From: Capsaspora owczarzaki ATCC 30864
Lineage: Eukaryota; Opisthokonta; Filasterea
NCBI RefSeq assembly: GCF_000151315.2
Contig: NW_011887303.1
Span: 953,503 to 1,017,502, forward strand
DNA length: 64,000 nt
Direction: 5' to 3'
The translations under genes were made by a program, and so were the position numbers. A model generated the notes under the pieces. The model saw nothing but the letters and a program-made list of their open reading frames with translations, was not told the DNA's origin and made no database searches. Below are positions 1,640 through 51,654 of the stretch, in pieces; within the stretch, counting starts at the first letter, position 1, and each line of letters starts with the position of its first letter.

Positions 1640-4600
1640 ATGTCGACGTTGCCGCTGCGCAGCCCCGCGGTCGGGTCGACTTCCGCCCTCCGACGCACAC
1701 CCGCTGCTGCTGCTGTGTCTGCTGGTATTCCAGGCATGGGCATTGGGATGGGCATTGACGCTGCGCTCCCGTCGCCAGCAGTCCAGCGCGAGTCGGCGCG
1801 ATCGCTCTTCCTCCGAAAGGCCGCCCAGTCGCAGTCGCAGTCCAACTCGCAGCCATTCCAGACACCACTCCGCCAGCCTCAACTTCAGTCTCATTCTCAA
1901 TCTCATTCTCAATCTCATTCTCAGCCCCAGCCTCAGTCGCAGCCCCAGCGCGGCTTGTTCAGCTACGCGGACGAGGACGAGCTCTTTCCACGCGCGGCGT
2001 CCTCGCCCGCGTTCGCTCGCCCAGCCGGTGGCTTCCATGGCTCGGGCTCTTCCATTGCTCCTGCTGCTCCTTCTAGTAGTGCTCCGTTTGCGATCGCGGG
2101 CGTCGGGCTGCCGTCGAGCGCGAATCGCGGCGTGCGGATCAATCCCGAGATCGCTGGATTGAGCGCAACCCCGCGCGCCAGTGGTGCCGTGGCTCCTGCT
2201 GCGTTCGCATCGTCAGTGTACTCACAGATGACTGGTCCAGAGGGCGGCCAGGCGACCGCCGTCATCGCCTCGACCTCGCAGCCTGCACCGCACGACCAGT
2301 TTGCTCAGTTCAATGCTCGCGTGGGACAGGCATTCGGGGCAATGTCGCCGGCTTCGACTGCAACTGGTGCAAGTGCGGCCCATTTTGCTCGCAGGCAACA
2401 GCAGCCTCAAGGAGAGCAAGGACCCGCCGATGCGTCGAGAAACGCTCTCATGCTTGATATTGACACGGACGACGTGACCACCACCTTGGCATCAGGGCCA
2501 CTCGACATTGTCAATGGTGAGTGCTGAACTAGCTCAATGAAGAGGCCACACAATGCAACCTCAGCTTGCAAACTGAATGCATCTTGTTTTTGGTTTTGTT
2601 TATGTTTTTGCGTCGTTGGAACAGACTTTTCCACCAACATGGCCATTCAGCAAGCAAACACGCCGGACGTAGCAGATGCACTTGCCGAATTTGAAGCCAT
2701 CTGCGTCGCCAACATTAAGGTACCGCGCGAGATTCCTTGTTCTGTGAGAGGCATTCCCTTTTGTGATCTCACTTCCCTTTCACAGTCCGTCCAGCGACAG
2801 CTCGCGCGAATTGCACCGTACTCGGCAGACTACGGCACCCTTGCTCAGAGACTTACGTGGCTGCGGAACGAGCGAAGCGCATGGCGACTCGCACGATTCT
2901 TGTTCTTGGACGAGCGAATGGCCGACGAGCGCAATGTCGCCGCCCGTGAACTGGCTCTGGAGCGCATGCAACAGCAGCAGCAGCAAGATCAGAGCGGATT
3001 GGAGTCGAGTGTTGTGGTTGAAGAGTGGGAGGTGGAGGAGCGCGAGACCCTCAAGAGTCGCTACTTGGAGCGCCTCGCCGGCCATGGCTCGATTCTGCGC
3101 ACGCTCTTCCGCACAGACTCGGCTAGCCGTCGCAATCTCACCATCCTGCACTGGCTCGAGTCATTGGCGGCGGACGAGATTCAGAGCGACGACGCCAAGT
3201 ATGTGACAGCGGCCATGAACGGTGTGGCGCAGATGGACGGCTGGGAGTATACTCTGCATGCGTTGCAGGCCATCAAGCAAAAGGATCGCCCCACCAACCA
3301 ATCCTTTGCACTTGGTGGTTCGGCGTTGGCCTCGTCCTCTGCCAGCTCGACCACTGGTTCCATTGGACTGGTGAAATCGCTCGATCCGGACGGTCCCCTG
3401 CGTGAAGGGCGCTCCCTCGCAGATGACGATATTGATCGCGAACGCACCTTGCTGCGCTTGGTGTTCCTGCTCATCCGCTCTGGTCGCATCAGCGACGCCC
3501 AGCACTTGTGCCAGGAAGCAGGGCACGCGTGGCGCGCAGCCACCCTCGGCTCTAGCTCTCTCTGGAACGACGCGGCCATGGTGTTTGAGCTCAACTCACC
3601 GGCGGAAGAGCAGGACGACCCGGAAGTGGCCGACGGTCGCTTGGTCTGGATCCATGCGTGCCGCATGCTGGCGAGCGACACTCGCATTTCGTCGCTCGAG
3701 CGAGCCGTGTATGCATCGCTGGTAGGCGATGTGTCGCACACGCTGCCAGAGTGTACTTCATGGGAAGACTGGCTGTGGGCATACTTCCGAGGCCTGGTTT
3801 TCGATCGCATCGAGCTCGAGTACGCCAACTTCCCGTCGCTGGCTGCCGTTGACGCCAGTGGCGAGTTTGATAGCATCTTCACCGAGCTCGAGGCCAGCGT
3901 ATCGTCTTCTTCTTTGGCTGCTGGAGAGCTGGCAGAAGCGTCGCGGCCCCCACAACAGCAGCGTGCCATTCATTTCGCCGCAGCCACCAATGCAGACCTC
4001 ACCCCAGATGTCATCTTGCGCCGCGCCGCAACGAGTAACGTCACTGCCGTTCGGGAAACATCGAACGAGCACTTCCACAGCGCCATCGCCGCGATGGTGC
4101 TCAACGATGCAGATGCGTTGCTGAGCACGCTGGCTCGGTCGTGCGGTGTTGACGGCGACATTGACACCCTCAACTCGCTCAAGTCTCGCATCATTGCCAG
4201 CCTGGGCCGCCGAAACACGTCGGGCGACCTGCAGCAGGTGGCATTGACGTCGGGCCAGCGGGCTCTGCACTCCGCGCATGTCATTCGCTTTGCCATTCAT
4301 CTCGCGCTGCATTTGCGCAACATTGGGATTGAGCTGGACACCCAGGTTGTCGACGGCATGTTGGCCGTTTACGTCGAGTTTTTGATTGACACGCACCGCT
4401 TTGACCAAGTTGCCCTGTACGTGTCCTTCATCACGAACGATTCCTTGCAAACAGCCCTGTATGCTGCGTTCCTGCAGCCCTTCCCCTCCAAGCGCCGTCA
4501 CCAATATCTGGCGCAAGGCGATCAGCACGGGCTGGATGTGGCTCGCATCGCCAAGGCAGTTGTCGACAATATTCGCTCGCTTGCAGATGCCGACGATGTC

Positions 4601-6248
4601 CTCCCCGTTCTGTCCTCGGGATTGCCTAGTGTTAATACTTCGATGGTCATGGCCACGCCCATGGGCCAACGCGGAGCCGCCGCGGTGCGTTCTCGACCGG
4701 GATCGGCGATGCGGCCTATCGAGAGCGCGAGTGCAGCGATGGACACTTCGGCTGGTCCTCTGCCACTGGTTGCAGCCACGCCCAAAACGCCGTTGCATTT
4801 CAAGTCCAAGCTCTTTGCCGCTGCCTCTGCGACCCCTGCCTCCCCGGCGACGCCGACATTGGCCAGTGCTTCGCGACCTCGCCATCTCCCGCCGCCGTCT
4901 TCCGTGCCCCGCATCGTGACAAACTTCCCTCAAGCGCCGGCAGCGCAGCAGCTCAATGCGAGTGCTCTGAGCAAGACTCCAGTTCGACAACACGACGCAT
5001 CATCGTCTGTCATTCCGACATTGGCTGCAGTCAATGCGCCCATCAGCCGACCCGTTCTGTCGCGAGCCGACCAAGAGCGCATTGATGCCATCCAATGGCT
5101 CTGTGGCGGCGCCAATGCGTCGCAACGTCAAGAGGCGCTACTGCAGATGAACAGTCTTCTTCGCGGCTTTTTGTCTGCGGACAAGTTTGCGTCCGCCCAC
5201 GCCTTGCTCGACGCCATGGCATCCTTCCGATTGGATGGCTTGCTTCAAGACAAGTTTGGCGACATTGATCCCGCGGAAGCCGAGCTCGAGCCCCAGTATC
5301 CCGACTTGTTGAACGCGACGCACGAGTTGCATTCGCATCGCGCGCTTGTCGCTGCTTATGAGGTGAGTGTCAATCGGATATAGGGAAGCGTTTTAGTTTC
5401 AGAACGATAGACCGATGAAGGGTCGAACTGATTTTTGTGTTTTGTCTTGTCAGATGTTTGATGCTTGGGCGGCCAAATTTGCAGGCCGACCTACAAGGCC
5501 CCCAGCGTTCACCACCGAGCTCTACGCGACCGAAGAACAGTACCAGCAGTCTATTGAAGGCTTTGAGATGCGGCACGAGAGGTAAGGTTGATTGGTTGTA
5601 AAGTACATGACTCGTCTGTCCCGCGCCATTCTTACGATTCTCAACCCACGTGACTCTGACTTGCTGTAGGTGGCAACAACTTATTATTGAGCTGACGGAC
5701 AAGGCGGTCGACTTGCTGCGCGAAATCCTAATGTTCAAGGGCGGTGAGTATCGCAAGAGCGCATGTCTTGTCCCCCTAGTTTTCCTTTCCACACACACAC
5801 ACACCCTCTGTGTGCGCGAATGCTTACTAATAAGTCTGTGTGTGGCGTTGCAGGCTGGCTGCTTGATCAATACGCTGAAGTGGACCAAAATGGAAACCCG
5901 TCTTTGCGCACACAGCAGATGGACTCTCTTCGTCAAAAGTTTATCCCGGCTCTGGCCTTCTTGCTACACAGGGTGAGTGTTTTTGTTTTGGGGGAGACGC
6001 ATGGCTGTTGTATGATGTGAATTGAGAGCGGCGCACCTCACATGCAATTCTGTATGGCTGTTTTTCAGGTGTTGCACGATACCGAACAAACTGGTCACGC
6101 GATGCAAGTTCCAGATTTGATCTGCCACCGTGTTTCACGGCTGTACGAACTGTTTAACAAGGCCGAATTGCGCCGGCTGATGGCTTTGGTGCGCGAATCC
6201 GCCCTAGCGAATCTAGAGTCTACAGGCCGACCATTGGGTCTTAATTAA
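1640..6248 (+). CDS. NUP107: Nucleoporin Nup107/Nup84, Y-complex scaffold, about 1349 aa
   Basis: Exons: 1640-2516, 2625-2719, 2786-5362, 5454-5581, 5670-5743, 5854-5972, 6069-6248. Nup107 is a helical-repeat subunit of the nuclear pore Y-complex. Residues 1-290 are a Ser/Gln/Pro-rich disordered tail with SQSHSQ repeats. The rest is alpha-helical and carries Nup107 signatures: LRLVFLLIRSGRISDAQ with AGHAWRAATLG, then WEDWLWAYFRG, then a long helical C-terminus. Length is larger than the human protein (about 925 aa) because of the N-terminal tail and internal Ser/Ala/Pro linkers around 4640-5090. The 66-nt stretch 2720-2785 begins GTACCG and ends TTTCACAG, but it is a multiple of three and has no stop. 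If retained, the protein is 1371 aa. Start chosen at 1640; an in-frame ATG at 1418 is less likely. Confidence 0.88.
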
Positions 6249-7147: not shown

Positions 7148-7367
7148 ATGAGCGAGGGCTTTGAGGTGCTTCGCTACGTTCGCGCCATCTACTCGTACAC
7201 TGCGACCAAGGACGACGAGCTCGACCTGGATGAAGGTTTGTATTGGAAGCGCAGCATTTCGTTCGTGTGTGTGTGTGTGTGTTTTGAATTGAATGTTGGG
7301 AACTGTGCTGTGGTTTGGATGGTTGGCCGAAATCTCGGTTCCTCAACGTCCACTCTCTACAAAGCGG

Positions 7368-7398
<31 letters not shown>

Positions 7399-10300
7399 CC
7401 AGGCAGGCAGGCAGGCAGGCAGGCAGCCAGGCAGGCAGGCAGGCAGGCATGGAAGAAAGCTCAGAGAGCGAGAGGAAAGGAAGGAAGGTCGGCTGCAAAG
7501 AGCTGAACGAGAACGCGAACCAAAAAAAAAAAAAAAAAAAAAAAAAAAGGGTCGAGAGAACGAGCAGAAGAGGCTGCCTGTCCCGCCCGAATGTCGCTTG
7601 CTGGAGTGGGTGCATGGGAGCAGCCAGCCAGACAGTCAGACAGACAGAAGGCGGTCCAGCTGCACAGAGTGCGAGAGAGGCTGGCTGCGCTGCGGGTCGA
7701 TCTGGGTGACGCGTTTTCCCTTTCCCCCCATCCGTTTCGCCGGGGATCGTTCTCCTCAACGCGCACTCGCACGACTCGGCAGCAGGCCAGTGCTCCCAGC
7801 AATGCACAGCCCACAGTCGTCTGAGAGAGAGAGAGAGGCCGCGTTCGCTTGCGCTCGGCGATTTGAAAGCCAACTCTGTAAAAAAAAGAAAAAAAATTCT
7901 GTTAAAACATTTTTTAATATTTTTATATTTTTATTTTTGATTTTTCTTTATTTAGTGTATGGAAAATACAAAAACACAGTTTTGGTTTTGTGAGGCCACA
8001 AAGGCAGGCACCTGAATGGATGGATTGGAGAACTGTGTGAGATGGATGATGCACTTTGGAGGCGGTGGAGGGGGGGTGGGGGTGTTTGAAGAACCAGCGA
8101 AAAACGCCACTTGATACTCAAAATGTTGCTTGCGGTTGTTGTTGCCTTGAAACCAACACCAGGTCAAGTCGTCGGGATTTACGGCGAAGGCGACGACGGC
8201 TGGTGCTGTGGCTATGCTGGTGACCGCGCAGGTACAGTGTTACCCTCATCCATTCACTCTCGCTGGCTGGTTTTGGCGGTGGATGATGAGACAACAACAA
8301 ACGATTTTTTGTGCTGCTTGGCATTCCCACACTCCAGGTTACTTTCCTGCGAATTATGCCGAAGACATTACACCAGAGGAAGCTGCAGCGGCACTGACGG
8401 ACGACTTTGGCCATGACGGTGGGGCGCACGAGACGGCAGACTCGCTGGACATTTACTCGTCGCCTGCAGCAACCTCCAAGCAGGTCGCCTCTGTCAAGGC
8501 CTGGCGAGGTCGCGCCAATTCTGAAACCGAATACGTCAACCCCAACTCATTTCGAGCAGACGGAGGAGCCGCCGGTGGTGGTGGTGCTGCAGGTGGTGAC
8601 GACGACGGCGAGCACCATTACGGAAATTACTCGGTGCAGCCGCAACGAGGCGGACGCGACGGCGACGGCGACGACTTTGACGACGAGAGATGGAGCGAGG
8701 ACGAAGACAACGATGGCGAGGCATCGACGGCGAGCTTCCAGTCTGGAACGTCCAACGACTCGACCTCGATCAAGCGCGGCTTTTCGGTGCGACTCTTTGG
8801 CAAGAAGGATTCCAGCGCCAGCCTTTCTTCCGACTCGGACAAATCCGACAAGGCTGCCGAAAAGGCAGAACGCGAGCGGCAAAAGCTGCGCGAAAAGGAA
8901 GAGAAGAACGAGCGACAACGGCTGGAGAAGGAGGAGCGCGCAGAAAAGCAGCGTCTTGACAAGGAGGCCAAGAAGGAGCGCGAGTTGGCCGAAAAGGAGG
9001 CCAAGGAGCGCGAAAAAGAAGCAAAGGAGCGCGAGAAGGAGGACCGTCGGCTCGAGCGCGAGCGTGAGCGTGAGGAGAAGCGCCGCGAGAAGGAAGCAGC
9101 AGCCCCCGCTCTCTCCAAACCCACCAGCACGAGCAGCATCTTCTCCAATCGCTTTAGCAAAAACTCAAACACCTCTTTCGACGCGTCGCCAGCTGCTTAC
9201 AGCGACCAGACCGGCCAGGATGATTACTACAATGATGAGTTTGCTGAAGAAGCAGAATACTACGAGGACGAAGTTTGGAGCGACGATGACACTGCCGATG
9301 TGGAAGGCGTCGTCTTTACCGGCGAAGCCGATGGTGAGTAGCCCCCCCTTTTTTTGTCTTGTTTCGCGTTTTGTGTCTCTGCGACCTCTTGGCATGTCGG
9401 GTGAAAAGCTCGACCGTGGGTGTTCTCACCTACCTTGGCGCTTTTCCATCGTGTCCAGGCTCCGAAGAAGCTGCCGATGAAGCGTACGATTCATGGGCCA
9501 ATCGCATGCGCAGACCGTCGATCGTTTCCAACAGCGCCGCAGCCGCAGCCGCAGCAGCCTCCGCATCCAGCACAAAGAAAGGAGGTAGCGCATCTTCGAC
9601 CAGCGATCGACCACCTGACAGTCCTACGATTGTGTTTATGCACACACCCGTCTCCACGTCTCGTTCATGGTAATTTGTTCTTTGGGGGGCGAGTTGGCCG
9701 ATACGAAGAAAGAAAAGAGTTTGAGTCCTTATTTGTTTGTGTTCCCGCCACACCCCCCCCCTTCCCCTGCTCTTTGCTCTTTGCTCTTTGCTCTGGGGCT
9801 TCGCAGGAAGGACGCCGTGACCGAAGCAGAGCTTGCGGAACTGAGCAAGCAGCAAATTCAACGGCAAGAGACAATTTTCGAGACAATCAAGACGGAGGGC
9901 GACTATGTCAATGATCTTAAAGTGCTCCAATCCGTGTACATTGGTAATGCCCACATGTTACGCGCGGCAGACCTCGCGCAATGTTGACGCTCATTGCAAT
10001 AATTGTTTTTTTTTCTCTCCAGCGCCAATGCGGAAAAAGAAGCTGCTGTCCGTCAAGAATTTGGCTGTGCTCTTTTCGAACGTGGAGCAGTTGCTTCCCA
10101 TCAACGAAGAGCTCCTTGGGTAAGGACCTTCTCGCCCTTGTTATTGCAGCATTCACGAGTGTGGCCGACTCACTGGCTGGCAACTTTTTTTTTTCTTTTG
10201 GGACAGGCAACTCGTGGCGCTTCAACAAAAAGCGTTCTACATTGAAGAAGTGGGTCAAATCTTCCTGACCATTGCCGACTTTTTCAAAGTTTACACGCTG

Positions 10301-13300
10301 TACTGCGCCAACTATGAGCACGCCATTGTCATTCTTGAAAAGGAGCTCAAGAGCAAGTGTACGTACTGTTTGTGTTGCTCCAAGCCGCTTTTTGTGTGTG
10401 TGTGTGGACGCTAGTTTTTGTGCTAATTGTCGCTCGCGTTTGCATTCCACACAGCCTTCAAAACCTTTGTCGACAACGCTTCCGCACTCGAAGAGTGCAA
10501 AGGACAGAACATTTCCAGCTTCCTGATCAAGCCTGTCCAACGAATTTGGTATGCGTGCAACATCCTGCTAGATTGTTTCACTCGCTGTTTTGTGTGTCTC
10601 ACTCTGATGCATCTACCCGGCAGCAAATATCCCCTTTTGCTACGCGAAATTCTCAAGCACACCGAGCCTTCGCATAAGGACTACAGCAAGGTTCAGGCGG
10701 CTCTGGCCAAAATCGAGACGGTCGTCACGGTCGTGAATGAGGCTGGGCGTGCGGCCAGCAACTCGGCGAAAATGCTCGATCTGCAGCAGCGCATCAAGAC
10801 CAAGGATGGCGAGTCGTTGGAACTTGTGGCTCCCTCTCGTCGTCTGCTTCGGCAAGCCTTGTTCAGCGAGATTGGTCCCGGTATGTCTGTTGTGTTTTGT
10901 AGCTTGTACTTGTTTTGAGACGTTGGACTGCTGTTTTTTTTATTGTAATTTGGCATCTCTCCCCGCCGTCCCCTTCCATCCGAGTTGATGGCTTGTCTGC
11001 ACATTGAACCCCTCACTTTTTTGTTTGTTGTGGATTGATCCTTCTTTGTCCAGATCGCAAGTCGGAGGAGCGCGAAATTTTCTTGTTTAACGACTTTTTG
11101 CTCATCACCAAGCCATCGAAAGTCAAGAACACGTTGATTGCCCAAATTCACTTTGATGCATGCATGGTCAACGATACTTTGGATGAGGTACGCACGTTCA
11201 GTTCACGCTGTTCTTGTTCTCGAATCATCAATCGTTCGAGTCGTGCCATCTCTGACATCAACTGCTCTTCGTTTTCGTCTTTTGGTAGCAATCCGAGGCG
11301 CTCGCGAACGGATTTGAGATCATCCATGCTGGACATGGAAAATACCTTGTGGTTGCCCCAAACTACACCGAGCGACAAAAGTGGGTGGACGATTTGGTTG
11401 GTCTCACCAGCGACTACCTCATCAAGATGCAACAGGAATGGGCAGCGCAGCAGGTTCCGCAAGACGACGAACCAGAGTCGCCTGCACGCGAAGCTGTCGA
11501 CTACTCTCGTGGCTATGGCAGTGCCGACATTGCGCGCTCCAAGAGGCAGCAGCAACTCGATGAAGGCGGTGGCGAGAGCGAGTACGCCAACTCACCAGCG
11601 CGCGGGTCATCGAAGCGCAGCACCATCATTCGTCGCATGTTGCGCAAGTCGGACGACGGTGGCGGCGAGCCCCAAAGTCCGACCAGCGGCAGCAGCGAAG
11701 AAGTGTACTATGGCAACGCCGGCTTCCTCAAGCGGCAGAATTCCAAACCCGTCGCCGTGGACGATGCTGAAGACCAGGCTCGCCGCGAAGAGAAGGAGCG
11801 GCTCAAGCGCGAAAAGGCCGAGCAGAAGGCAGCGGCCAAAGAGCAGGTGCGCACAGTTGAAGCGCGTGTTTCGAGCGTCCTGCTTTCATTGGGTTTTTTT
11901 GTTGTCTTGCCATCTCTTTGATTGACCTTCCGCTCACTGTTGCGATTCGTTGTCTTTGTTTGTGTCTGGGTGAACGTTTCGGTTGACAGAAAGCGAAGGA
12001 GAAAGAGGCACGCGCGCAAGAAAAGAAGGAGCGCAAGGAGCGCGAGGAGCGCGAGAGGCAAGAGCGCGAGGAAGCTGAAGCTGCAGCTGCCGCAGCCGCC
12101 GAAAGCGCATCGACCTCGCCAGCGCCTTCACGTGTACGTAGCCGTTGGAATATACTGTTGGTTGCCTCCTCCTGTTTGAGCATTTGTTTGGTGCTAAAAA
12201 TCGCCCTTCTCTTCGGATCATTGTAGGCCGTTCCGAAGCTTCGTAGCATGTCAACAACATCCGAGTCGAACGAAAATGCGAGTGGAGGCGAGGAATCCTC
12301 GTCTGACCGGCCGGCAGCACCCCGCCGCGCCCCGCCGGCACGCCGTCCTCCACCGAACAAGGCTCCTCCCAAGCCAACAGCTGCCGCATCCAGTGACGAA
12401 GAGTCGAGTTCGAGCAGCTCCAGCAGCGAGAGCGAACCTGAGCCCGAGCCGGCTGCCGAAGCAGCCAAGGACGAGAACGACAGTCAGTATTTTGTTGGAT
12501 TGGATGCGTCTTTGTGATCTGCAGACCCCTCATTTTGCAATCCATGCCCCGCCCCCCCCCTCCGCTTTTCTCCATTTGCTGCTGCTGCTGTTGATACAGA
12601 CCGCCCGCGATCTGGAAGCGGAAGTGGATTGAAGCGCGTTTTCACCAAGAAGACTCCAAAGCCTGCGGCTGAGCGTCTCGAGCTTCCTGCAGCCTACAAG
12701 CGCGCTGAGGAGCGTCGCATCAATCTGCCTGTGCGAGTTATCAAGCAGGAGCTTCAAGGAAGCAGCTATGTCAGAGAACACAAAAACCCATTCTTGTTTC
12801 ACAAAGTTCAACTGCTTGCTCATTGTCCGCTCTGTGTCGCTTGCTGCTGTAGCTCTTTACCATTCGCATCAAGAACGATGGCTTGGAAGGTCCTATCAAA
12901 TTCGTCAAGCGAAAGTTTGGCGACTTTTACCAATTGCACATGGATCTCATCACGACCTTCCCCGCAGAAGGCGGCGTGTCTGACGAGAGCTCGCGCATCA
13001 TCCCCGAGCTTCCAGCCCAGGCTGTCATCATTACGGACGACGTTGCTGCTGCGCGCGTGTCAGAGCTTGACTTGTACTGCCAACGCCTGTACACCTTGCC
13101 GGACAAGATTAGCAAGAGCGACATTGCCCAAAAGTTCTTGGTGGACGAGGTCAAGCAGCGTCGCATCGAGCGACCCAACAACATGGCGCTTGCTCAACGG
13201 CGTATGCAGGAGCGACGGCCTCCAGGCTCCCGCCCCGTTGGCGACGTTAACAAGATTTACGCCACCTCGGCAGAGGCCACGGGCAAGGAAAATGACGGAG

Positions 13301-16092
13301 CTGCCCCGGCCGACGGTGCCAAACCAGCCGAGGCTGCCAAAGAGTAAGACGAAGCACCTGGTGGTTGTTTGGGTTTGGTCGAAAATGTGTGCGAGCGCCA
13401 ACGTTTTTTTTTTTTTTTTGGTTGGTTTGTTTGTTTTGTTTTGTTGTGGTTTGGCGTTTTAGGGGCGGCGCGGTTCTGGTCACCAAATCCACTGGCTGGG
13501 TTCCTCAGAAGAAAGTCACCGTCAACCCCAACATTACCAATCCCGCAATGGCAGCTTCTCAAGGCCGCGTGAAGCCCCAGCGAGGGCCCCCGCCCGCATT
13601 GACGCAGCGCACTCAGTTTGGCGCTGGTCCCGCGCTGGCGCCAAGCCAACAGGCCCAGGTCGATCTGCTTCTTCAGCGAGCTGGCATGACCCCCAGCGCT
13701 GGAAATCGTGCTGCTCCAGCTGGCCGGAAGGTTGGCCCGGCGACAGCAGCGCTTTTGGGCTCAAAACTCAAACAGCCCGAGCCTGCACCGCCAGCAGCAG
13801 CAGCAGCAGCAGGCGCAGCAGTGACGCCTGATGCTACACCTGCTGCAGCGAGCGCTGCCAGCCCTGCGGCGGCTGAGGGTACTCCGGCGACTCCTGCTGC
13901 CGCGCCAGAGGCAAACGTCATGCTCACGAATGTTCCTGCGTAAGCCTTCTCTGTCATTGCTTTGTGGTGAGCGCTTTTGTTGGCTGTCCATTTTGCACTC
14001 ACCTCAACTCCATTGAATTCAATTGACACAGGCGCCCGAGCATTCCTGTGAGTCGATCTCGCCTCAAGAAAGAACCCGAGGCTGGCTCTGCCACTTCACC
14101 CGCCATCTCTTCTGGCACGTCTTCCGCCACCTCTTCTGCCGGATCCAGCCCTGCACCGGGTGTCTCTCAAACTCCAATTTACAGCGCTGCTCGACCCCCT
14201 CCAGCCACTCGCCCTGCTGGTCCACTGGTTGCTCGGTAAGTCAAGTCTGTGCCGCGAGTTCGCGCTTCCGACTCATTCTGAAGCAAAGGGTGGCAGGCTA
14301 ACCATTGTGGATTAACTTTTGCTGTCTCGTTCGCGCTTCTCCATAGACCTCCTCCGACAGCTTCTCAAAATGTGTTGGGCCGAGCTCGTGCCGCGGCAGC
14401 CGCCATGAGTGCTGCGCCCGCCCAATCTGGCGCCACGCCGCCTTCCGCTCACATCCCTTCCTCTGCCAGTCCAGCGACGAGTGCCAGTCCTGTGCCCTTC
14501 GGTCGTCCACCGTACGTGTCGCTTTTTTGTTTTGTTCTTGTTTGAATTTGCGTGGGCTTGTGTTTGTGTGGGGGGAGGTCTGCCGCGCTTTGCCTAACCA
14601 CCAGTGGTGTGACAGACCTCCGACTGGCGAGTACCGCTCGCTTGCCTCGGCTCGAGCAGGCGCAACCCCCGCTGCCGCTGCCGCTGCACCACCGCCTGCT
14701 GCTGCAACCCCTGTAGCGAAAGCGGTTGCAAACGAAGCTGCGCAATCCGACGCCAAGACCAGCGCTATCATTGCATTATTGAAGAACGACAATGTCCAAG
14801 AAACCTCATTGTATGTACTCATCTCCATCAGTTGTGTTGCGAAGCGGAATTGTCGCTGTTGTTCTGGTTTTGGTCTTACCCTGTACGTTTTTGTGCTGCT
14901 GCTGCTGCTGCTGTGTGCGTGCGTTCCTAGCTCTTCGTTGCCCCCTTCTGCAATGGATCATTCGAAGGACAACCCGGCGGGACCATCCACGAATGCTGCT
15001 GGCTCGGCTTCTCCATCCACGGCGCGCGCATCCTTGCCGACCGCGGCAGCCAGCAGCATCTACGCTTCCTCTCCGCCGACCAACCGGTCCTCTCTCTCAA
15101 ACGCGGTTCCAGGAGGGCCTTCCGTCACGTCCAGTGGCGGCATTTACGCCGCACCGAAAAAGGATGGTCCGATCTACGAAAAGCCGCGTCCCACCATCTC
15201 TGGGCCCGTGGCGGTCAGTTTGCCAGCATCTGTTGCCAGCAACACTACTGGCAGCTCCAGTCAATATGCGCCTGCTGGTAGCCGAATCGGAGGGGCTGCT
15301 GCATCGACCCCGTCGACAGCCTCTCCTGCCGTAGCGTCGATCGCGTCGACGCTCGGCGCACGCACATCATCCACCCCATCATCAATGGGAACGTCGCCTG
15401 CCGCCTCAATCGCCGCGGGACTCAAACCCGCGAATGCATCCGCTGGGCAGTACGCGGCGCCTTCATCGTCTAATGCGTCTGCTGGTCAGTACGCACCTAT
15501 CAAAAAGCCCACTTCCGTGCCTCCGCCGCGACCCAATGCAGCTCCGGCACCGGCACCTGCACCTGCACCTGCACCTGCGCCGGCACCCGCTCCCACGCCT
15601 GCCGCAGCTGCAGCGCCCGGTCGGCCAACGCCATATGCCGGAGGAGCCGCGTCGCGCTTTGGCGCTGGCGCCACCTACGCGGCTTCGAATGTCAAAGCTG
15701 GTCCGCCACCTGGCGGATTCCGTGCACCAGCTCCCCCGCCCGGAACGGTCGCTGCCGCTGCGCCTGCTGCGCCTGCGGCTGCCCCGGCTCCAGCACCTGC
15801 AGCGCAGTCTGCATATGCCGCATCACCTGCCGAGGACGCGAACGCTATTCGCGTCAAGGTGCAGCGCATGGACAACAATCAAATGTTTGCATTCAAGGTA
15901 TCGCCCTCCTGGACGTACACCAAGCTGTACGACTCCTTGAGTGGCAAAATTGCGCCGCCCGAAGGCAAGAAGATGGAGATTAGTTACAAGGATGAAGATG
16001 GCGATGTTGTCACCATCCTCGAAGACGATGATTTCCAGATGGCCATGGAGCAAACTGGAGCCAAGCTTTTGCTCTTTGTTCATCTCAAGTGA
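7148..16092 (+). CDS. SH3-DH-PH-PX-PB1 Rho guanine nucleotide exchange factor/scaffold, 2018 aa
   Basis: Twenty exons: 7148-7235, 8163-8231, 8338-9333, 9459-9669, 9807-9943, 10023-10119, 10207-10358, 10455-10548, 10624-10880, 11054-11187, 11289-11846, 11990-12133, 12227-12482, 12600-12769, 12853-13343, 13463-13939, 14032-14235, 14347-14511, 14616-14810, 14931-16092. Domains: SH3 at 10-62 (ends YFPANY); charged coiled coil about 223-306; DH about 465-655 with the CR3 signature QRICKYPLLLREILKHT; PH about 665-780; second charged stretch; PX about 1108-1220 (KFVKRKFGDFYQLH, then IPELP); Pro/Ala-rich linker with YxxP-type tyrosines (IYAAP, IYEKP, QYAAP); C-terminal PB1 about 1936-2018 with the OPCA motif YKDEDGDVVTILEDDDF. 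The DH-PH pair should activate a Rho GTPase, PX binds phosphoinositides and PB1 pairs with another PB1. Yeast splits these domains between Cdc24 (DH-PH-PB1) and Bem1 (SH3-PX-PB1). The 927-nt first intron cuts the SH3 domain. Confidence 0.9.
7366..7449. repeat. (GGCA)n microsatellite in intron 1 of the SH3-DH-PH-PX-PB1 gene
   Basis: About 20 GGCA units, with two GGCAGCCA interruptions at regular spacing. A 27-A run follows at 7522-7548. Both lie inside the 927-nt intron that splits the SH3 coding region. The apparent Arg/Gln-Ala repeats read from it are not protein. Confidence 0.9.
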
Positions 16093-27281: not shown

Positions 27282-30200
27282 TTAAAAGTCCTCTTTCAAG
27301 TAATTCATGGGAACAACACCTCGTTGGCTAGTCCTCTGATTGAGTGCGACACCCCACCCGTCGTTTCCGATCTGGAGCACTTTGACGCGATCGCCAGCCT
27401 TGAGTGCCAGCTCATCGCCGCGATTCGCCGTGTAGGCATACTTGGCCTTGTACATTTTGCCCGCCGAAGAGGCAGCATCCAGCTTGAGCGTAGCAGACGA
27501 TCCCGTGCTGGGCAGAGGCGCTGAGGCTGGTGGTGCTGGAGTGGTAGTTTTCAGCGCAGGAAGGACCGGAGTGGCGGCGGCCAGCACGGGCATCGCAACT
27601 GCCGCCTGAACGCTTTGAACATCGTCGTAAATTGAGTCTGCAGGTGCTGCGGCAGCGCTGTCCTGGACAGTTGCGTATGGCGAAGGTTCTTCCTGAGCTG
27701 CTGGCTTTGGAGTTCCGTTGCGAGCGGGGAGAACAGCCACCGCTTCAGCCGCTTCGACCGAGTCGGCCACGGGAGAAATGGGGGTGGTGGGCGTGCGCGG
27801 ACGTTCCATCGCCGGTGCAGATGATTGCGCGAGGGGCGACGAAAGTGTGGGCGAGCTTCCGCTGGGTCGCGAAAGGGGTGCGACGGGGGCCATTGCAGGC
27901 GTCGATCGGGCGCTCGGCGGCGCAGGCGGTGCTTTGGTTGGTTGATTTTTCTTTGGCTTGATGGCGGTTGCAGGATCCTTGATTGCTTCCTTCCATTGGT
28001 CGGGCACATTCTCGGCCTGACAGCGAAAATGCGAGGGTAGACCAAAAAAAGAAATCAAGGTCAGACAATCAGCAACGTGCATATGGATGACAACCCCTTG
28101 GCACGACTACGAATAACAGCAACCAAAACCGTGACACGTTCCGAAACCAACAAACAAACAATCAAACCCAGGGCTCCCTACCTCAAACTTTTGCTCATTG
28201 GGGTTCCAGCCGACATGCGCAACATGCTCGAATGACTCGGATTTGGGCATGCTAATCATATTCTTGGTCAGCTTGACGCGAACAAGGTTCTCCTCGCCCG
28301 GCTTGCCCTTCTTGAGCTTCTTGGCGGCGCTTGCAGACATGGTGGAGAACTTGAGTTGCAACGCCGGGTCGGTCTCGTCGCCCGTTGGCTCGCTGCTGGA
28401 AGGAGCGCTGGGCACATCTCCGAAGGGATCCGCAATGGCGCTCGACTGCAAGCCAGCCGGCTGCTTCCGAATGGTCGTTGGCGACGCGACACGACTGGAG
28501 CTCGAGGGAGAACCAGGCGGGGGTGTGTTGGGCGAGGAGGAGGAAAAGGACGGCATGGATGGAGATCGGGGCGTGCTGGGACCAGGTGACGCCGGTGGCA
28601 AAGCGGTGGACGACACCTTGGAGGCGGCGGTGGGCAGCTTCACCTCCTCGACAAAGGACGCCGGGAAGGACCCAGTCTTTCCGCCAAGCTCACCTTCCCA
28701 CCAGGCGTCGGCGCCCTTCGCGTAGATGCGCAAGAGCGAGTTCTTGGCAAAAAGCAAGTCGTTGTCGCTGCCACCGACGACATCGTAGTCAAAGATGGCT
28801 CGTGCAACGCACAGCAGCGGGCGATTCTCGTTGCCGGCCGCTGGAGGGGCGTCAGCGAGAGCGCTGGCTTGCGCGATCAAAGTCTTGGCGTCCATATCAG
28901 GGACGGCGACAAGCGTGGGCGTGGACGGTGCTGGCGAGCCCGCTCGAGGCGAGAGTGACGCGAGGGATGCTGGCGACGACACCAATGGCGAGGGCGGCGC
29001 GCCATGCATTGTACCTACCGCGGCGCGACTCGCGGGGCCCAGCCGAAGCGTGGCCACGGGATCGGCGCCACGTGCGATCGCCACCGAGGCCTCCAGTTGT
29101 CGCGATTCAAGCTCAAATTCATTGGCCTGGCGGATGCGGTCTGCTTCAGCTCGCCGACGGCGATCTTCCTCCTTGTGGCGTCGCTCGTCTTCGCGTCTTT
29201 GTCGCTCATCTTCGTCGGCCTGTTTCTTGGCCAGGCGACGATCCTCCTCTTCTCTGCGCTCGCGCTCGCGTTTTTCAGCGCGCTCCTCTTCCTCCCGCTT
29301 GCGTTCCGCCATGATGCGGTTGCGCTCATCTTCCTTTGCGCGTTCCTCGCGTTCTCGCTTTTCGCGCTTTGCGCCGCACGGCGGGAAATCGCAAAGCCAC
29401 TCAAAGCACTCGAACGCGCCGGGCGTCAGCCCCACGCAGGTGCGGTGGAACCAACGATCGCAGGCGCCAGGACCATTGCACAGCATGACGTCGTCCTCAA
29501 TGCGACGGCCACACTTGCCGCAAGGGTAGTCGGCGGGCTCCAGTCGCGCTGCGTGGGCCGCCATGAGCTCCTTCACCGTCCGCGAGAGCGCAATGCCTGC
29601 ATTCACGAGCAGTTGCGCGCCCAAATCGTCAATGCCCCCGCTCGAGTTTGTGCCGCTAATCCCCTTGACGCCTTGCAATAGAGTTGTCAAACAGGAGGTG
29701 AGACGGCCTTGTAGTCCGAGAATGAGTGCAACGCGCTGGCCGTTCGAATCGCACTCCTCCATCAGCTTTTTCACAGTGGTCACGATGGAGGTGGCCAAGT
29801 CCACGAGGGCATCCTTCGGGGTCGTGTTGGCTTTGGCGTTCTGCACGAGCTTGTTGACAAGCTTCAACGCCGTCAGCACGACTGCGTCCAACGTGACTGT
29901 CTTTGTGATCTTTGCTGCCGACATGGCCGGAGCGACCTGGATGACAAGTTGGACGGAACAGGGAGGAGGGAAAACAAAGTGAGCACTAAAATCATCACCA
30001 AAATAAAAGAAAGACAAAAGCAACAACAAAGCAACGTCAAATACGTACCGCAGGCGGCGTGGCTGTCGGCAACGGCGAACTGGAAATGGATCCGACAGGA
30101 GAAACAGGACTGCCAGTGGAAAGTATGTCGGATGTGGTCTGGATGAGACCTTTGGCGGAGGCGACGAGCTGCTGGACGACAATCGAACCGTCTTGGCCGG

Positions 30201-30756
30201 ACGACACGGCTTTGGCTCGACCGATAAAGTCGCTCAGCTGCGCAACGAGCGACTGGGGCATGTTTGGCACGAGCTCTTTGACAGTCTTCACAACAGTGGC
30301 GGCGGCTTGGATGACGCCTTCATAGTTTTTCTGCTGCACCTCACGCACAAGCGCGACAATGTCGGCATTGAGGGTGTCCAGCGTTGCGGGTCGAGCAGGT
30401 GCCGGCACAGATGCGAGGGCTGCAGGCGGGGCGCGCGCAGCTGGTCCTCGCCCCACAGGCGCCGATGCCAGCGCGGCTGGAGGGAATGATGTGGCAGACG
30501 CGGTCGGTGTGGCGGGTTTGGACGAGGACTTTTGGGCAAGCTCGCCGATAAACTCGAGCAGGTCTTCGCGATGGCCCAACGACGACACGCCGAGCTTCTC
30601 GAGCTTGTCATCGGTCAGCTTGACCAATCGCTTGCCCGAAATGTTGTTTTGCACAAAGGCAGGCGCGTATGCAGCGAATGTGCTGCCTGACAGCTCTTTG
30701 AGCCACGCTTCGACGTGCGCTTCTGTCCACGCGTCGACGTCTGCAGGGAGTACCAT
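27282..30756 (-). CDS. SAM-PHD-SH3-CRIB-SH3 scaffold protein, 3 exons, 1065 aa
   Basis: Exons 30756-30049, 29936-28182, 28016-27282. Domain order: SAM (about 6-70; VEAWLKELSGSTFAAYAPAF, then LVKLTDDKLEKLGVSSLGHR); two similar helical segments (VVKTVKELVP near 150 and IVTTVKKLMEE near 290); PHD-type zinc finger (about 373-430; CGKCGRRIEDDVMLC, then CDRWFHRTCVGL, then CDFPPC); Arg/Glu-rich coiled coil (about 430-540); SH3 (about 612-672; AIFDYDV, DAWWEGELGGKTGSFPASF); CRIB/PBD (about 798-835; MISMPKSESFEHVAHVGWNP, then VPDQWKEAI), the signature of Cdc42/Rac effectors such as PAK and WASP; Pro/Ser-rich linker; C-terminal SH3 (about 1006-1065). It should bind GTP-loaded Cdc42 or Rac through CRIB and proline-rich partners through SH3. 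No kinase or WH2 domain is present, so it is a scaffold. I know no animal or fungal protein with this order. The exon junction splits the CRIB motif. Confidence 0.87.
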
Positions 30757-47521: not shown

Positions 47522-47887
47522 GCAATGCACCTTCAGTCTGTCGATTCAACACTTTGGAGTGGTTTTTTTTTTTTTTTCACCATTCCAACCAATTTCCCAG
47601 ATTTGGTTTCCATTCCGACGCTCACCTTCAATCCATTTCAATTCATCCATTTCAATTCATCCATCAATTCATCCATCTAATGGTTCACTCATTCATTCAT
47701 TCGTTCTTTCCATTATTCAATTATTCAACTCACTTTTCTTTTTGTTTGTTGCTTCTTAGCTTTTTTTTTTTTTTTTCAAATTTTTTTTCCTTTTTTTTTT
47801 TTTTTTTTGGCTTTTTTCCATACATTTGTGTCTGCTGCAAAACGAACCATTCAGTCCACTGCTTCACCCTCAACTCGCTCATCAGTC
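47151..47887. other. Spacer upstream of the Sec14-PH-DH-PH gene
   Basis: A 737-nt spacer with a (CA)n microsatellite (47480-47520), a CATTCATT/TTCAATTCATCC repeat block near 47630-47700 and several long T runs (47761-47776, 47789-47808) shortly before the next ATG. No gene supported. Confidence 0.6.
47480..47520. repeat. (CA)n dinucleotide microsatellite
   Basis: An uninterrupted CA run of about 20 units, flanked on both sides by CAATGCAC, suggesting that slippage grew within a short duplicated context. Intergenic. Confidence 0.95.
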
Positions 47888-50800
47888 ATGGCAGCCGAGT
47901 CATCGTCATCGTCATCGTCATCGTCTTCGTCCGCGCTGGGTGGGCCGCAGCAGTTAAACCGGCCGCTGTCCGCACTCTCGCCCGCAAACAACGGACTGGG
48001 CGACATTCTGGTCCCGCCGTCGCCGACAGCAACAGCAACAGCAACAGCAACGCCCGGCATTGACGACGAGCAACTCACAGAGCTGTACATGACGTCGTTC
48101 GGCATCACGCGCGACGAGGCCAGCCGCATCCTGCTCCTGCGGCGGAAGCTCGTCCAGAAGGGCTTCCTGTCATCCACTGCTGCTGCTACTCCAGCTGCTT
48201 CCGACCACCAAGCAACCCAACCTCAAGCGGCCACCACAAGCAGCAGCCACAACTCAAACGTCCTCAATGACGAAACAGTCCTCCTCGCAAAGTTCCTGTT
48301 TGCCCGCGAGTTTAACGTCGAAAAGGCGCTCGCGCTGTACACGGTCTACATGAACCACTTTGGCATCACCCAGCGGTTTGCCGTCGATGTCATGGACTCG
48401 CTGAGGGACGGCACGCTGTACCTCCCTGGATCGCGCGACAAGGACAATGCTGCCGTGCTCGTCGTCGCTGCCAAACTGCAGGAAATGAGCTTCCCGTCGT
48501 CGCCGGCGTTCTCGGCCAGCTCGTCGTCCAACTTGTCGGCCATTCTGGACTTGGCATCGTATCTGCTGGACATTGCCACGACAGACACACTCACCCAGCG
48601 CAACGGCATTGTGGTGGTGGTCGATCTCTCGCGCGCCAGCTGGAAGCAGTTTGATGCCTCGCTGCAGTCGCAGTTGTTTGGCTTGATGGACGAAAAGTAC
48701 CCCGTGCGCCTGCGCCGCATCTACCTCGTCAACGCTCCGTGGTGGCTGTCCATGGCCATGAAGACGTACAAGGCTGTCATGTCTGCGCCCTTGGCCGCCA
48801 AGCTCGAGGTGGTCGACAACAACGCCTCGCTCGCCAAAATCATCCCGCCCACCAGTCTGCCGAGCGACTTTGGCGGAAGCCTGCCTTACAACCACGAGGC
48901 ATTCGTCGACCAGCGCGTGCAAGCCGAGACAGATCTTCTTGCGGCGGCACGACGCGAAGGATACGTCTACCAGCTCGTGCCCACGTCCGACGAAAGCGAG
49001 GAAATGTTCAAGCGCCAGCTGTCCGAGCGTCGCCACTTCCACGAGCAAATTGCTCGCTTCTCGACGGTGTTTGACGATGATGTCGATGATCCGTTCGAGC
49101 AAATGCAAGCCCACGCAGGGGACGACAGCACAAGCGGTAGCAGCACGCCTGGATCGCCGCCGCAGATGCGCACCATTGCACAGCTGCCGGCTTCCATGTC
49201 GACATCCCTTCATTCAGTGTATTCGCTGACTCCGTCCATGTCCAGCGAGTCCCAGACCTCGGCAGCTGCTGCTGTCAAGTGGGTGCGTCGCTACTTTGTC
49301 ACGCGCGTCAAAGAAATGATCATTACCGTCTATCGCACGGCCGATGATGCCGCTGCGCTCGAAACGATTGATTTGCACAAGTGCTCTGACATTGTGGTGG
49401 ACGAGCGAACGGTCAAACTCTTGCAAGAGCAATCGGCAAACAACACCGTGTCCTCGACCTCATCGCCCGCCGCTGGTGGTGGTGGTGGTGGTGCGTCCGC
49501 CAACCGCCTGAGCACGCTGAGCACCAAAAAGAGCGACCAGACGGTGACGGCGCTTGGTCGTGGTGCGTTTGTGAGCGCCCTGGATTCGCCCGAAGCGCAA
49601 AACTCGCACGCCTATTTCGGTTTCCACATCCTTGGCATTGACGGTACCAAATGGTCCATCCGTCTCGAAGGTGCTCGAGAGTTTGAAGGCTGGATGGCGT
49701 CTCTCCGCGGCAAGATGAATGTAAGCAGTGGGCATTCTGCCTTTATTTTGCTTTGGTAGTGTGCAGCGACTGATTGTTTTGTTTGTTTGTTTTTTGTTTG
49801 TTTGGTTTTTGTTTGTTTGGTTTTTGTTGTTTTTTTTTTGTTTTACAATGCAGATTGTTCGCGAAGAACGCCGCCGCCGTGAAGAGGAATTGGCGCGCCG
49901 TCAGAAGGAGGAGCGAGAGCTGAAGGAACGGCTCGAGAAGGCTCGTGAGGAGGAGCGCGCCCGACTTGCCCAGGAAGAGCAGGAGCTCCGCGAGCGCCAA
50001 GAACGCGAGGCTCGCGAGGAAGAAGAGCGAGCCCGCGAGGCTGTGCGATTGGCCCGCGAGGAGCGCATCCGCACCCTCCACCCCAAACGCACCAACATTG
50101 TGCAGGAACTTCTGGCGACCGAGCAATCCTACGTGAACAACCTTGTCATGGTGGTGGATGTAAGCGAACAGGAGTAGGTGCTGTGTTGATTGTTTCTTTT
50201 TTGTGTGTGTGTGCTCATGCCGTCGTACGACTCAGTTCTTCATCAAGCCGTTGCGAGCAACGATCGAGACTGGCAAGCCGCTGGTGACCAACGCCGATCT
50301 CAAGAAAATGTTCCCCGATTTGGAATCGATTGTTAACATCAACAAGCAGCTCCTGGCAGAGCTGGCCGAGCGTGTTGAGAACTGGTCGGCCGTTCAAAAG
50401 ATTGGCGACATCTTTTTGAAGATGGTACGCTTGCTGTTTCTGCCATGACACGGGTGTCAAGATGCTTGTTGATCCTTTTTATTTTGCTCACGCTACCCTC
50501 GCAACGCAGGCCGTTTACCTCAAGGTTTACACTGGCTTTGTCAGCAATTTCCCGATGGCCACCGAGTTGATATCGCGACTGACTGAAACTTCGGCTCCGT
50601 TCAAGGCCTTTTTGAAGGTAAGGCAATTCATCAAACGTGCTTTGTGTGTAGTGGTGTTGAATTTGATGGCATTCTTGTCGAGTGGTGTTAACGGGACTCG
50701 GCAAATTGTCTACTTGTCAGGAAACTGAATCAAGGCCTGAATGCAAACGCCTCGGTTTGCTCCAACACATGCTTACTCCGATTCAACGCATTCCTCGCTA

Positions 50801-51654
50801 CGTCTTGTTGCTTGAAGGTGGGTCTGCTCTTCCTTTTTTTTTTGAAATTCAGCTTCGGCAGCTTTCTCACTCATTGACGTGTTTTTTCCCGTCGAATAGA
50901 CCTTGCCAAGCGCACCGATCCAGAGCATGTTGACTACGCCGACATCACCGCTGCTGTCAAGCAAGTCAAAGAACTCGCCAACTTTATCAACGAGACCAAG
51001 CGTCAAGCAGAGTCCCGCGCAATGATGGTTGCCATCCAAAAAGACGTCAAACGCCTTCCCGAAGGATTTGTGAGTCGAGTGCTTTTGTTCTCGTTGTTCT
51101 TTTTGATCGTGCATCAAACTGTCGACTGTTGCTGACTTTGGGTTGGCGCAATAGGAGTTGCTGCAACCTCAACGACGCCTGATTTCCGACACCCATTTCA
51201 TCGAGCTGGAAATCCTCTCTGGGTCTCGCCAGTACACGCCCGGTCACACAATCATTGTTTATCTCTTCTCGGATTTGGCTCTGTTCGTTCAGCGCAAAAA
51301 GAAGAAGCAAGGAGTGTCGGATGGCTTCCGCGCCAAGTCTGCGCTGAGCGACATTCACGTCGTTCCGCTGCCCGATGTTGGTGGTGAGTGGTGACATTCA
51401 TTTGATTTGACGGATGAGATTTCGAATTGGCGTCCTCTATCCCGTTTGATGCTAACTTGACGTTGCAAAAAAAAAAAAATACTCGGCTGTCCGTTCTGCT
51501 TGTAGAAAACACCAACCTGATGCAGATCTCAGCCGGCGACCTTGTTGTCATTGCTCAGGCTACTAGCAAGCGAATTCGAGATGACTGGATTGCGCAGCTG
51601 AAAGACACACAACGATGCGAGTCTGCTCCTGCTGCCCCAAGCACTGCACAGTAA
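47888..51654 (+). CDS. Sec14-PH-coiled coil-DH-PH Rho guanine nucleotide exchange factor, 8 exons, 1026 aa
   Basis: Exons 47888-49720, 49854-50159, 50236-50424, 50510-50617, 50721-50817, 50900-51069, 51155-51383, 51506-51654. Order: poly-Ser N-terminus; CRAL-TRIO/Sec14 lipid-binding domain (about 105-340) with FLFAREFNVEKAL, VVVDLSRASW, RRIYLVNAPWW and LPSDFGG; a first PH domain (about 455-611; KWVRRYFVTRVKEMIITVY, closing with EFEGWMASLRG); Glu/Arg coiled coil (about 615-690); DH domain (about 690-890) starting IVQELLATEQSYVNNLVMVV, with CR3 MLTPIQRIPRYVLLLE; a second PH domain (about 900-1020), ending RIRDDWIAQLKD. Sec14 before DH-PH recalls Dbl/MCF2 and Trio, but spectrin repeats are replaced by a PH domain and a short charged coil. 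It should activate a Rho GTPase at a lipid-marked membrane. Start at 47888 is the first ATG with a plausible context; upstream in-frame sequence is T-run derived. Confidence 0.9.

Follow-up and report, generated by a model that had tools for sequence, protein, structure and literature searches.

An SH3-DH-PH-PX-PB1 protein encoded as a single chain in Capsaspora owczarzaki, a candidate scaffold with its own Cdc42/Rac exchange module

The stretch of DNA analyzed here, 64,000 nucleotides of the Capsaspora owczarzaki ATCC 30864 genome (contig NW_011887303.1; hereafter the window), carries at 7148..16092 of its forward strand a gene whose predicted product unites SH3, DH, PH, PX and PB1 domains. 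In the splice model, 20 exons join into one open frame of exactly 2018 residues with a sole stop codon, TGA at 16090-16092, and all 19 introns have GT-AG ends. Exons 1-5 lie at 7148-7235, 8163-8231, 8338-9333, 9459-9669 and 9807-9943, exons 6-10 at 10023-10119, 10207-10358, 10455-10548, 10624-10880 and 11054-11187, exons 11-15 at 11289-11846, 11990-12133, 12227-12482, 12600-12769 and 12853-13343, and exons 16-20 at 13463-13939, 14032-14235, 14347-14511, 14616-14810 and 14931-16092, all on the forward strand, as are the domains listed below. The annotated frame is the best by codon log-odds in 19 of the 20 exons, the exception being exon 2 with 22 codons, and the stretch from PH to PX (exons 11-14) reaches 0.55-0.91 bits per codon in this frame. 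Intron 1 (7236-8162, 927 nt), the longest by far, contains a microsatellite of GGCA units and a stretch of 27 consecutive A residues. A preliminary description had proposed a 2018-residue gene with 20 in-frame exons and all five domains in one chain; the splice model, with its frame deduced from the DNA, bears this out, and each domain exceeds its curated Pfam cut-off, PX and PB1, singled out beforehand for a domain search, included.

The SH3 domain (residues 13-59; 7184..8357, exons 1-3; Pfam SH3_9, 3e-11) has the second SH3 of p47phox as its nearest solved structure (4e-13), with STAC3 (8.9e-12) and many others close behind. Kinship to p47phox is weak, as the nearest SH3 domains among the loci compared belong to genes other than p47phox, whose own locus in this genome gave no match to the window SH3 at E<=0.01. 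It is followed by the DH-PH module of a Dbl-family RhoGEF, composed of a DH (RhoGEF) domain (residues 478-653; 9874..10738, exons 5-9; Pfam 4.5e-50) and a PH domain of the SOS1/NGEF type (residues 686-781; 10835..11396; SOS1_NGEF_PH 3.1e-8, PH 7.5e-6). Among solved structures the module is nearest to ARHGEF4/Asef (7.5e-36), P-Rex1 and intersectin, with collybistin also leading, and no Cdc24 occurs among the best 60 of 68 matches. These four proteins are guanine nucleotide exchange factors (GEFs) for Cdc42/Rac, and the window DH-PH is likely a Rac/Cdc42 GEF module as well, the substrate being a prediction. Asef and intersectin carry an SH3 domain too, as the window gene does; no RhoGEF of the intersectin, Asef and P-Rex kind is known to have the PX-PB1 part found here. 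A relative of the window DH was also sought in viral_contigs, where none was found. A charged linker rich in E, K, R, S and A (11397..12724, exons 11-14) leads from PH to PX.

The PX domain (12725..13143; Pfam PX 3.2e-10 over residues 1137-1218, with the start placed at residue 1107 by alignment) is of the Bem1/p47phox type. Its best matches among solved structures are yeast Bem1 (4.4e-11), p47phox (1.2e-9) and NOXO1 (2.3e-6), while PI3K-C2alpha (0.0016) and p40phox (0.0036) are much further away. The chain holds four simple SH3-ligand matches, two per class, one of which, R-x-x-P-x-x-P at residues 1169-1175, lies within the PX domain. Since a PxxP able to meet an SH3 is described as a general PX feature (PMC2837644), it is no special mark of this protein. 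The same article lists RhoGEF and PB1 among the PX-associated domains and gives the co-occurrence of RhoGEF and PX as rare.

All 27.46 Mb of the genome (29 contigs, the window being part of contig C12) were searched with domain profiles exon by exon, a procedure that a PB1 split by introns could escape. When a yeast Bem1 PX fragment was compared with the genome, a gene on contig C6 came first (1.2e-10), followed by the window gene (1.7e-10) and loci on C2, C4 and C1. Several genes of this genome thus have this PX type, the p47phox gene and an ArfGAP-linked one among them, and its presence does not by itself identify a Bem1. The first-ranking C6 locus (about C6:295600-296700, L067) shows a weak ArfGap match (1e-4, below the cut-off) upstream of its PX on the same strand; it is a possible ArfGAP-PX gene and was rejected as a true Bem1 on account of this upstream exon.

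Between PX and PB1 extends an Ala/Pro/Ser-rich, presumably disordered region (13210..15846) of about 700 low-complexity residues, in which Pfam found nothing at E<=1. The PB1 domain closes the chain (15847..16083; residues 1938-2016, Pfam 2.5e-12). The full OPCA motif announced in the preliminary description is confirmed by the spacing D.[DE].D.{8}[DE], which is that given for human p40phox in PMC2121648; it spans residues 1986-1999 with all four acidic positions kept. Two lysines, at residues 1941 and 1971, complete the picture and give the window PB1 a basic face besides the acidic one. They probably correspond to human Lys-355 and Lys-382. The nearest solved PB1 is that of yeast Cdc24 (2.2e-5), with NBR1 next (0.015); in the reverse direction, the window locus is the best match in the genome to a fragment of the yeast Cdc24 PB1 (8.4e-4; runner-up 0.026). 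As a control, the PB1 of the p67phox-like gene on contig C17, which likewise has four acidic OPCA positions and lysines at both basic positions, also matches Cdc24 first (0.0032) and then p40phox (0.0083). The Cdc24 match is therefore weak evidence, and was discarded as proof of PB1 kinship.

RhoGEF and PX profiles matched 47 and 41 exons of the genome, respectively, and a second site with both together was found on contig C4. This paralogue (about C4:1021035-1024990) encodes SH3, RhoGEF (167 bits), a SOS1/NGEF-type PH, a charged linker rich in E and K, and PX. Its SH3 scores 43.6 bits from the last ~40 residues, the first part lying further upstream at a place not located. DH, PH, linker and the first PX strand form one uninterrupted frame (L034:991-3285), so that, unlike in the window gene, DH to PX start occupies one exon. 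Two introns agree between the genes in place and phase, one in SH3 before Y/FFP (phase 1) and one in PX following strand 1 (phase 0). Among the genome loci compared, the C4 DH-PH is the best match to that of the window outside the window (42% identity over 320 columns; 261 bits against 117 for the runner-up), and the DH domains share 45% over 189 columns. A tree of 22 DH rows, in which the window and human Asef were joined by 20 of the 24 DH groups of the loci compared, the 4 short ones being left out, pairs window and C4 with support 90/77; when 7 further rows, long or partial, were removed, this fork was no longer resolved and C4 was still the nearest row. Against solved structures the C4 PX ranks Bem1 (9e-10) and p47phox (3.2e-9) first, as the window PX does. 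With the same SH3, DH, PH, linker and PX types, the two genes differ in PB1: none was found in the last frame of the C4 gene, and the 8 PB1 candidates detected genome-wide are all on other contigs. The SH3-DH-PH-PX core is thus an older, duplicated architecture, to which PB1 was added in the window gene or from which it was lost in C4.

The preliminary description had gone further and seen in this gene the whole Cdc24 plus Bem1 polarity set. The five-domain architecture, the PX nearest to Bem1 and the PB1 nearest to Cdc24 stand, whereas the kinship with the two fungal proteins was overstated. Cdc24 (CH-DH-PH-PB1) resembles the window protein in its DH-PH and its C-terminal PB1 with OPCA. In contrast to Cdc24, the window protein has SH3 and PX in addition, and neither the CDC24 family (PF06395, CH-like; residues 1-1000) nor PH_10 (PF15411; window protein), the Cdc24-type PH, gave a match at E<=1; the DH-PH, as seen above, is nearest to Asef, P-Rex and intersectin. 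Elsewhere in the genome PF06395 matches weakly on C2, C13 and C19, and PH_10 twice, on C19 and C13, both times under the cut-off. A gene of the CH-DH-PH type is present on C13, where the CDC24 profile, neighbours included, scores 27.9 bits and exceeds the cut-off. It has an extended proline-rich tail, no PB1 was seen in the part of it that was read, and its DH and the window DH do not form a group in the tree. C19 was dismissed as a second Cdc24, its translation reading by eye as a Vav-like CH-DH-PH-C1-SH3-SH2 protein. With Bem1 (SH3-SH3-PX-PB1) the window protein shares an SH3, the PX type, for which p47phox is nearly as good a match, the C-terminal PB1 and the order SH3-PX-PB1. It differs in its catalytic DH-PH module and in the number of SH3 domains, one against two, no second SH3 having been detected when all 2018 residues were scanned in pieces with Pfam. 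OPCA, present in the window PB1, is missing from the PB1 of S. cerevisiae Bem1 according to PMC2121648.

The same genome encodes components of a Nox2-type NADPH oxidase. A 150-residue NADPH-binding stretch matches human Nox2 at 4.2e-50, a putative ferric reductase at 1.3e-31 and Nox5 at 3.6e-26, and p22phox is represented by a match of 37.5 bits with neighbours (cut-off 25). A p47phox gene (PX-SH3-SH3; 5.7e-39) is located on C2, and a p67phox/NoxR-like gene on C17 resembles human p67phox in its TPR and activation region (5.9e-35) and ends in PB1. Four of the 8 PB1 candidates scored genome-wide attain the Pfam cut-off, namely those of p67phox, the window gene, a bHLH gene and a PB1-kinase gene. 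Three of the 8 (p67phox, window gene, bHLH-adjacent) do so at E<=0.001, and C1:999449 makes the cut-off with neighbours (0.0017). Apart from the window gene, in part, none of the four resembles p40phox, Bem1 or Cdc24, which makes the window protein the leading candidate for the PB1 partner of p67phox.

Two of the known oxidase proteins invite comparison. p47phox and NOXO1 (PX-SH3-SH3-proline-rich region) have similar PX and SH3 types and a PxxP inside PX; the window protein differs from them in its order, its single SH3 and the added DH-PH and PB1, and a PX followed by tandem SH3 domains was not found by Pfam in the whole chain. p40phox (PX-SH3-PB1), the known p67phox partner, combines PX, SH3 and an OPCA PB1 as the window protein does, whereas in the latter SH3 is N-terminal, PX is weakly similar (0.0036) and a GEF module is added. 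Vertebrate p40phox links p67phox to membranes via PB1 and PX. The survey in PMC2121648 detected p40phox in vertebrates only and describes fungal NOXR and amoebal p67-like proteins as having PB1 without p40phox. The question which PB1 protein partners fungal NOXR is raised there, together with an 'exchanger model' based on a PB1-bearing RhoGEF. A pairing of NoxR with Cdc24 through PB1 is given in PMC7051960.

Taken together, these data point, with a probability of about 0.42, to an organizer-type scaffold that has its own Cdc42/Rac GEF and whose PB1 would dock p67phox on a Nox2-type oxidase, partner and substrate being predicted. PX and PH may bring the protein to membrane phosphoinositides, the lipid being presumed, and DH-PH would load Cdc42 and/or Rac there. 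The single SH3 could keep the protein closed on a PxxP site, a putative autoinhibition, or bind a proline-rich partner. The C-terminal PB1 would dock a partner PB1, most likely that of the C17 p67phox/NoxR-like protein, and Rac-GTP might thus be delivered beside the Rac-binding TPR of p67phox on the oxidase. One chain would then do the work of vertebrate p40phox plus a Rac GEF, or of NoxR, Cdc24 and Bem1 of filamentous fungi, and the paralogue on C4 would represent the same apparatus lacking a PB1 dock.

Several observations weigh against this proposal. GEF and PX are arranged alike in the C4 paralogue, in which no PB1 was found, so that the core function may be independent of p67phox, and the genome already has an organizer in its p47phox gene. 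Instead of p67phox, the window PB1 might bind itself, the bHLH protein, the C1 PB1-kinase, one of the 4 weaker candidates or an intron-split PB1; the C1 PB1-kinase gene makes the p67phox assignment slightly less probable. The second position of RR(Y/F), the lipid-site motif of PX, is a Lys, which makes the lipid uncertain, although the first Arg and a later lipid-site Arg are kept. AlphaFold models computed from single sequences for the PX and PB1 exons were uninformative (mean predicted local distance difference test score, pLDDT, 39.1 for PX and 52.9 for PB1), and Foldseek with the low-confidence PB1 model gave 0 of 302 matches at E<=0.001. Partner binding, expression and exchange activity are all predicted from sequence.

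Somewhat unlikely, yet the best placed among the other explanations, is a Cdc42 polarity scaffold without a role in the oxidase. PX and PH would bind membranes, Cdc42 would be loaded locally, and head-to-tail self-association of PB1 would cluster the GEF and create a positive feedback at filopodia or cortex. The PB1 with OPCA and both lysines suits such a scaffold, as do the kinship of the DH with GEFs that act on Cdc42/Rac and the C4 paralogue, in which the same GEF-PX core occurs and no PB1 was found. In yeast, Bem1 stimulates Cdc24 by speeding its exchange reaction, for which the PB1 of Bem1 is required (PMC5386590). Self-association is hypothetical, however, and the genome offers a ready partner in its PB1-bearing p67phox.

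It is conceivable, though improbable, that SH3-DH-PH-PX-PB1 was an ancestral opisthokont form that was duplicated in fungi, Bem1 having lost DH-PH and Cdc24 having lost SH3 and PX. Such a form would explain why the PB1 domains of Bem1 and Cdc24 are sister paralogues, and PMC7051960 describes them as a monophyletic pair. The domain order is compatible with both proteins, the window PX is nearest to Bem1, and the window PB1 and Cdc24 are mutual best matches within the sets searched. The missing CH and PH_10 matches, the separate CH-DH-PH gene on C13 with a DH that does not group with that of the window, the C17 PB1 control and the additional match of the Bem1 PX to the ArfGAP-linked PX all speak against this history, which is less supported than the GEF-bearing scaffold. 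That the window gene might retain a single-chain polarity/oxidase module, from which fungi derived Bem1 and Cdc24 through duplication and reciprocal loss of domains, is a long shot; if it were true, the PB1 pairing of Bem1 and Cdc24 would be a relic of one PB1 that once served both self-association and p67phox docking.

Very doubtful is a functionless PB1 recently captured by an existing SH3-DH-PH-PX gene. The C4 paralogue without a detected PB1 and the ~700 low-complexity residues between PX and PB1 would fit, but the retention of all four acidic OPCA positions and both lysines argues for an interface in use. The idea of two genes, SH3-DH-PH and PX-PB1, that seem fused through short intergenic DNA was judged highly improbable: an ATG in exon 13 could start a second gene and a retained intron 12 would end the first, but the PH-to-PX exons are separated by GT-AG introns of 83-143 nt only, in the C4 paralogue a single open frame runs from DH through PH and linker into the first PX strand, and the two intron positions in SH3 and PX are common to both genes, so that a break between PH and PX is unlikely.

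No description of the SH3-DH-PH-PX-PB1 architecture was found in the titles and abstract beginnings of the open-access papers listed in literature searches, and the protein probably exists as an unstudied entry in databases. A Cdc42/Rac-activating enzyme and membrane- and partner-binding parts like those of Bem1 and p47phox, which are separate proteins in yeast and humans, would here be combined in one protein. Whether GTPase loading is physically linked to oxidase assembly, or to polarity, is thus testable with one gene. The question of the NOXR partner was posed for fungi in PMC2121648; here a genome with Nox2, p22phox, p47phox and a PB1-bearing p67phox encodes a likely GEF-PB1 protein as well, and the architecture bears on the origin of the Bem1-Cdc24 pair.

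Two further PB1 loci were considered in the genome survey. On the reverse strand of L087 (C1:998501-1000500), a PB1 piece is followed by a protein kinase frame that appears MEK5-like by eye, and C1:999449 was rejected as a hidden Cdc24 or Bem1 for this reason. On C10 (L064:7586-8580), HLH (8.1e-7) and PB1 (1.1e-6) lie in neighbouring frames assumed to belong to one gene, possibly a transcription factor with PB1. This PB1 was discarded as a Bem1-like partner beside PX, since it adjoins the bHLH and the PX belongs to a separate gene, in our estimation SNX13/14-like.

Within the window, a Nup84/Nup107 nuclear pore gene lies directly upstream (2528-5380, forward strand, 1.5e-87). At 27285-30233 on the reverse strand, an adaptor with SH3 and a P21-Rho-binding (CRIB) motif, and by eye a PHD-like cysteine stretch and a further SH3, is likely a Rac/Cdc42 effector encoded ~11 kb from the GEF gene. 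A second RhoGEF gene occupies 49700-51600 on the forward strand, with RhoGEF matches at about 50230-50502 and 50715-50816 (C12:1003732-1004318), and is preceded by a CRAL/TRIO frame at 47681-49756.

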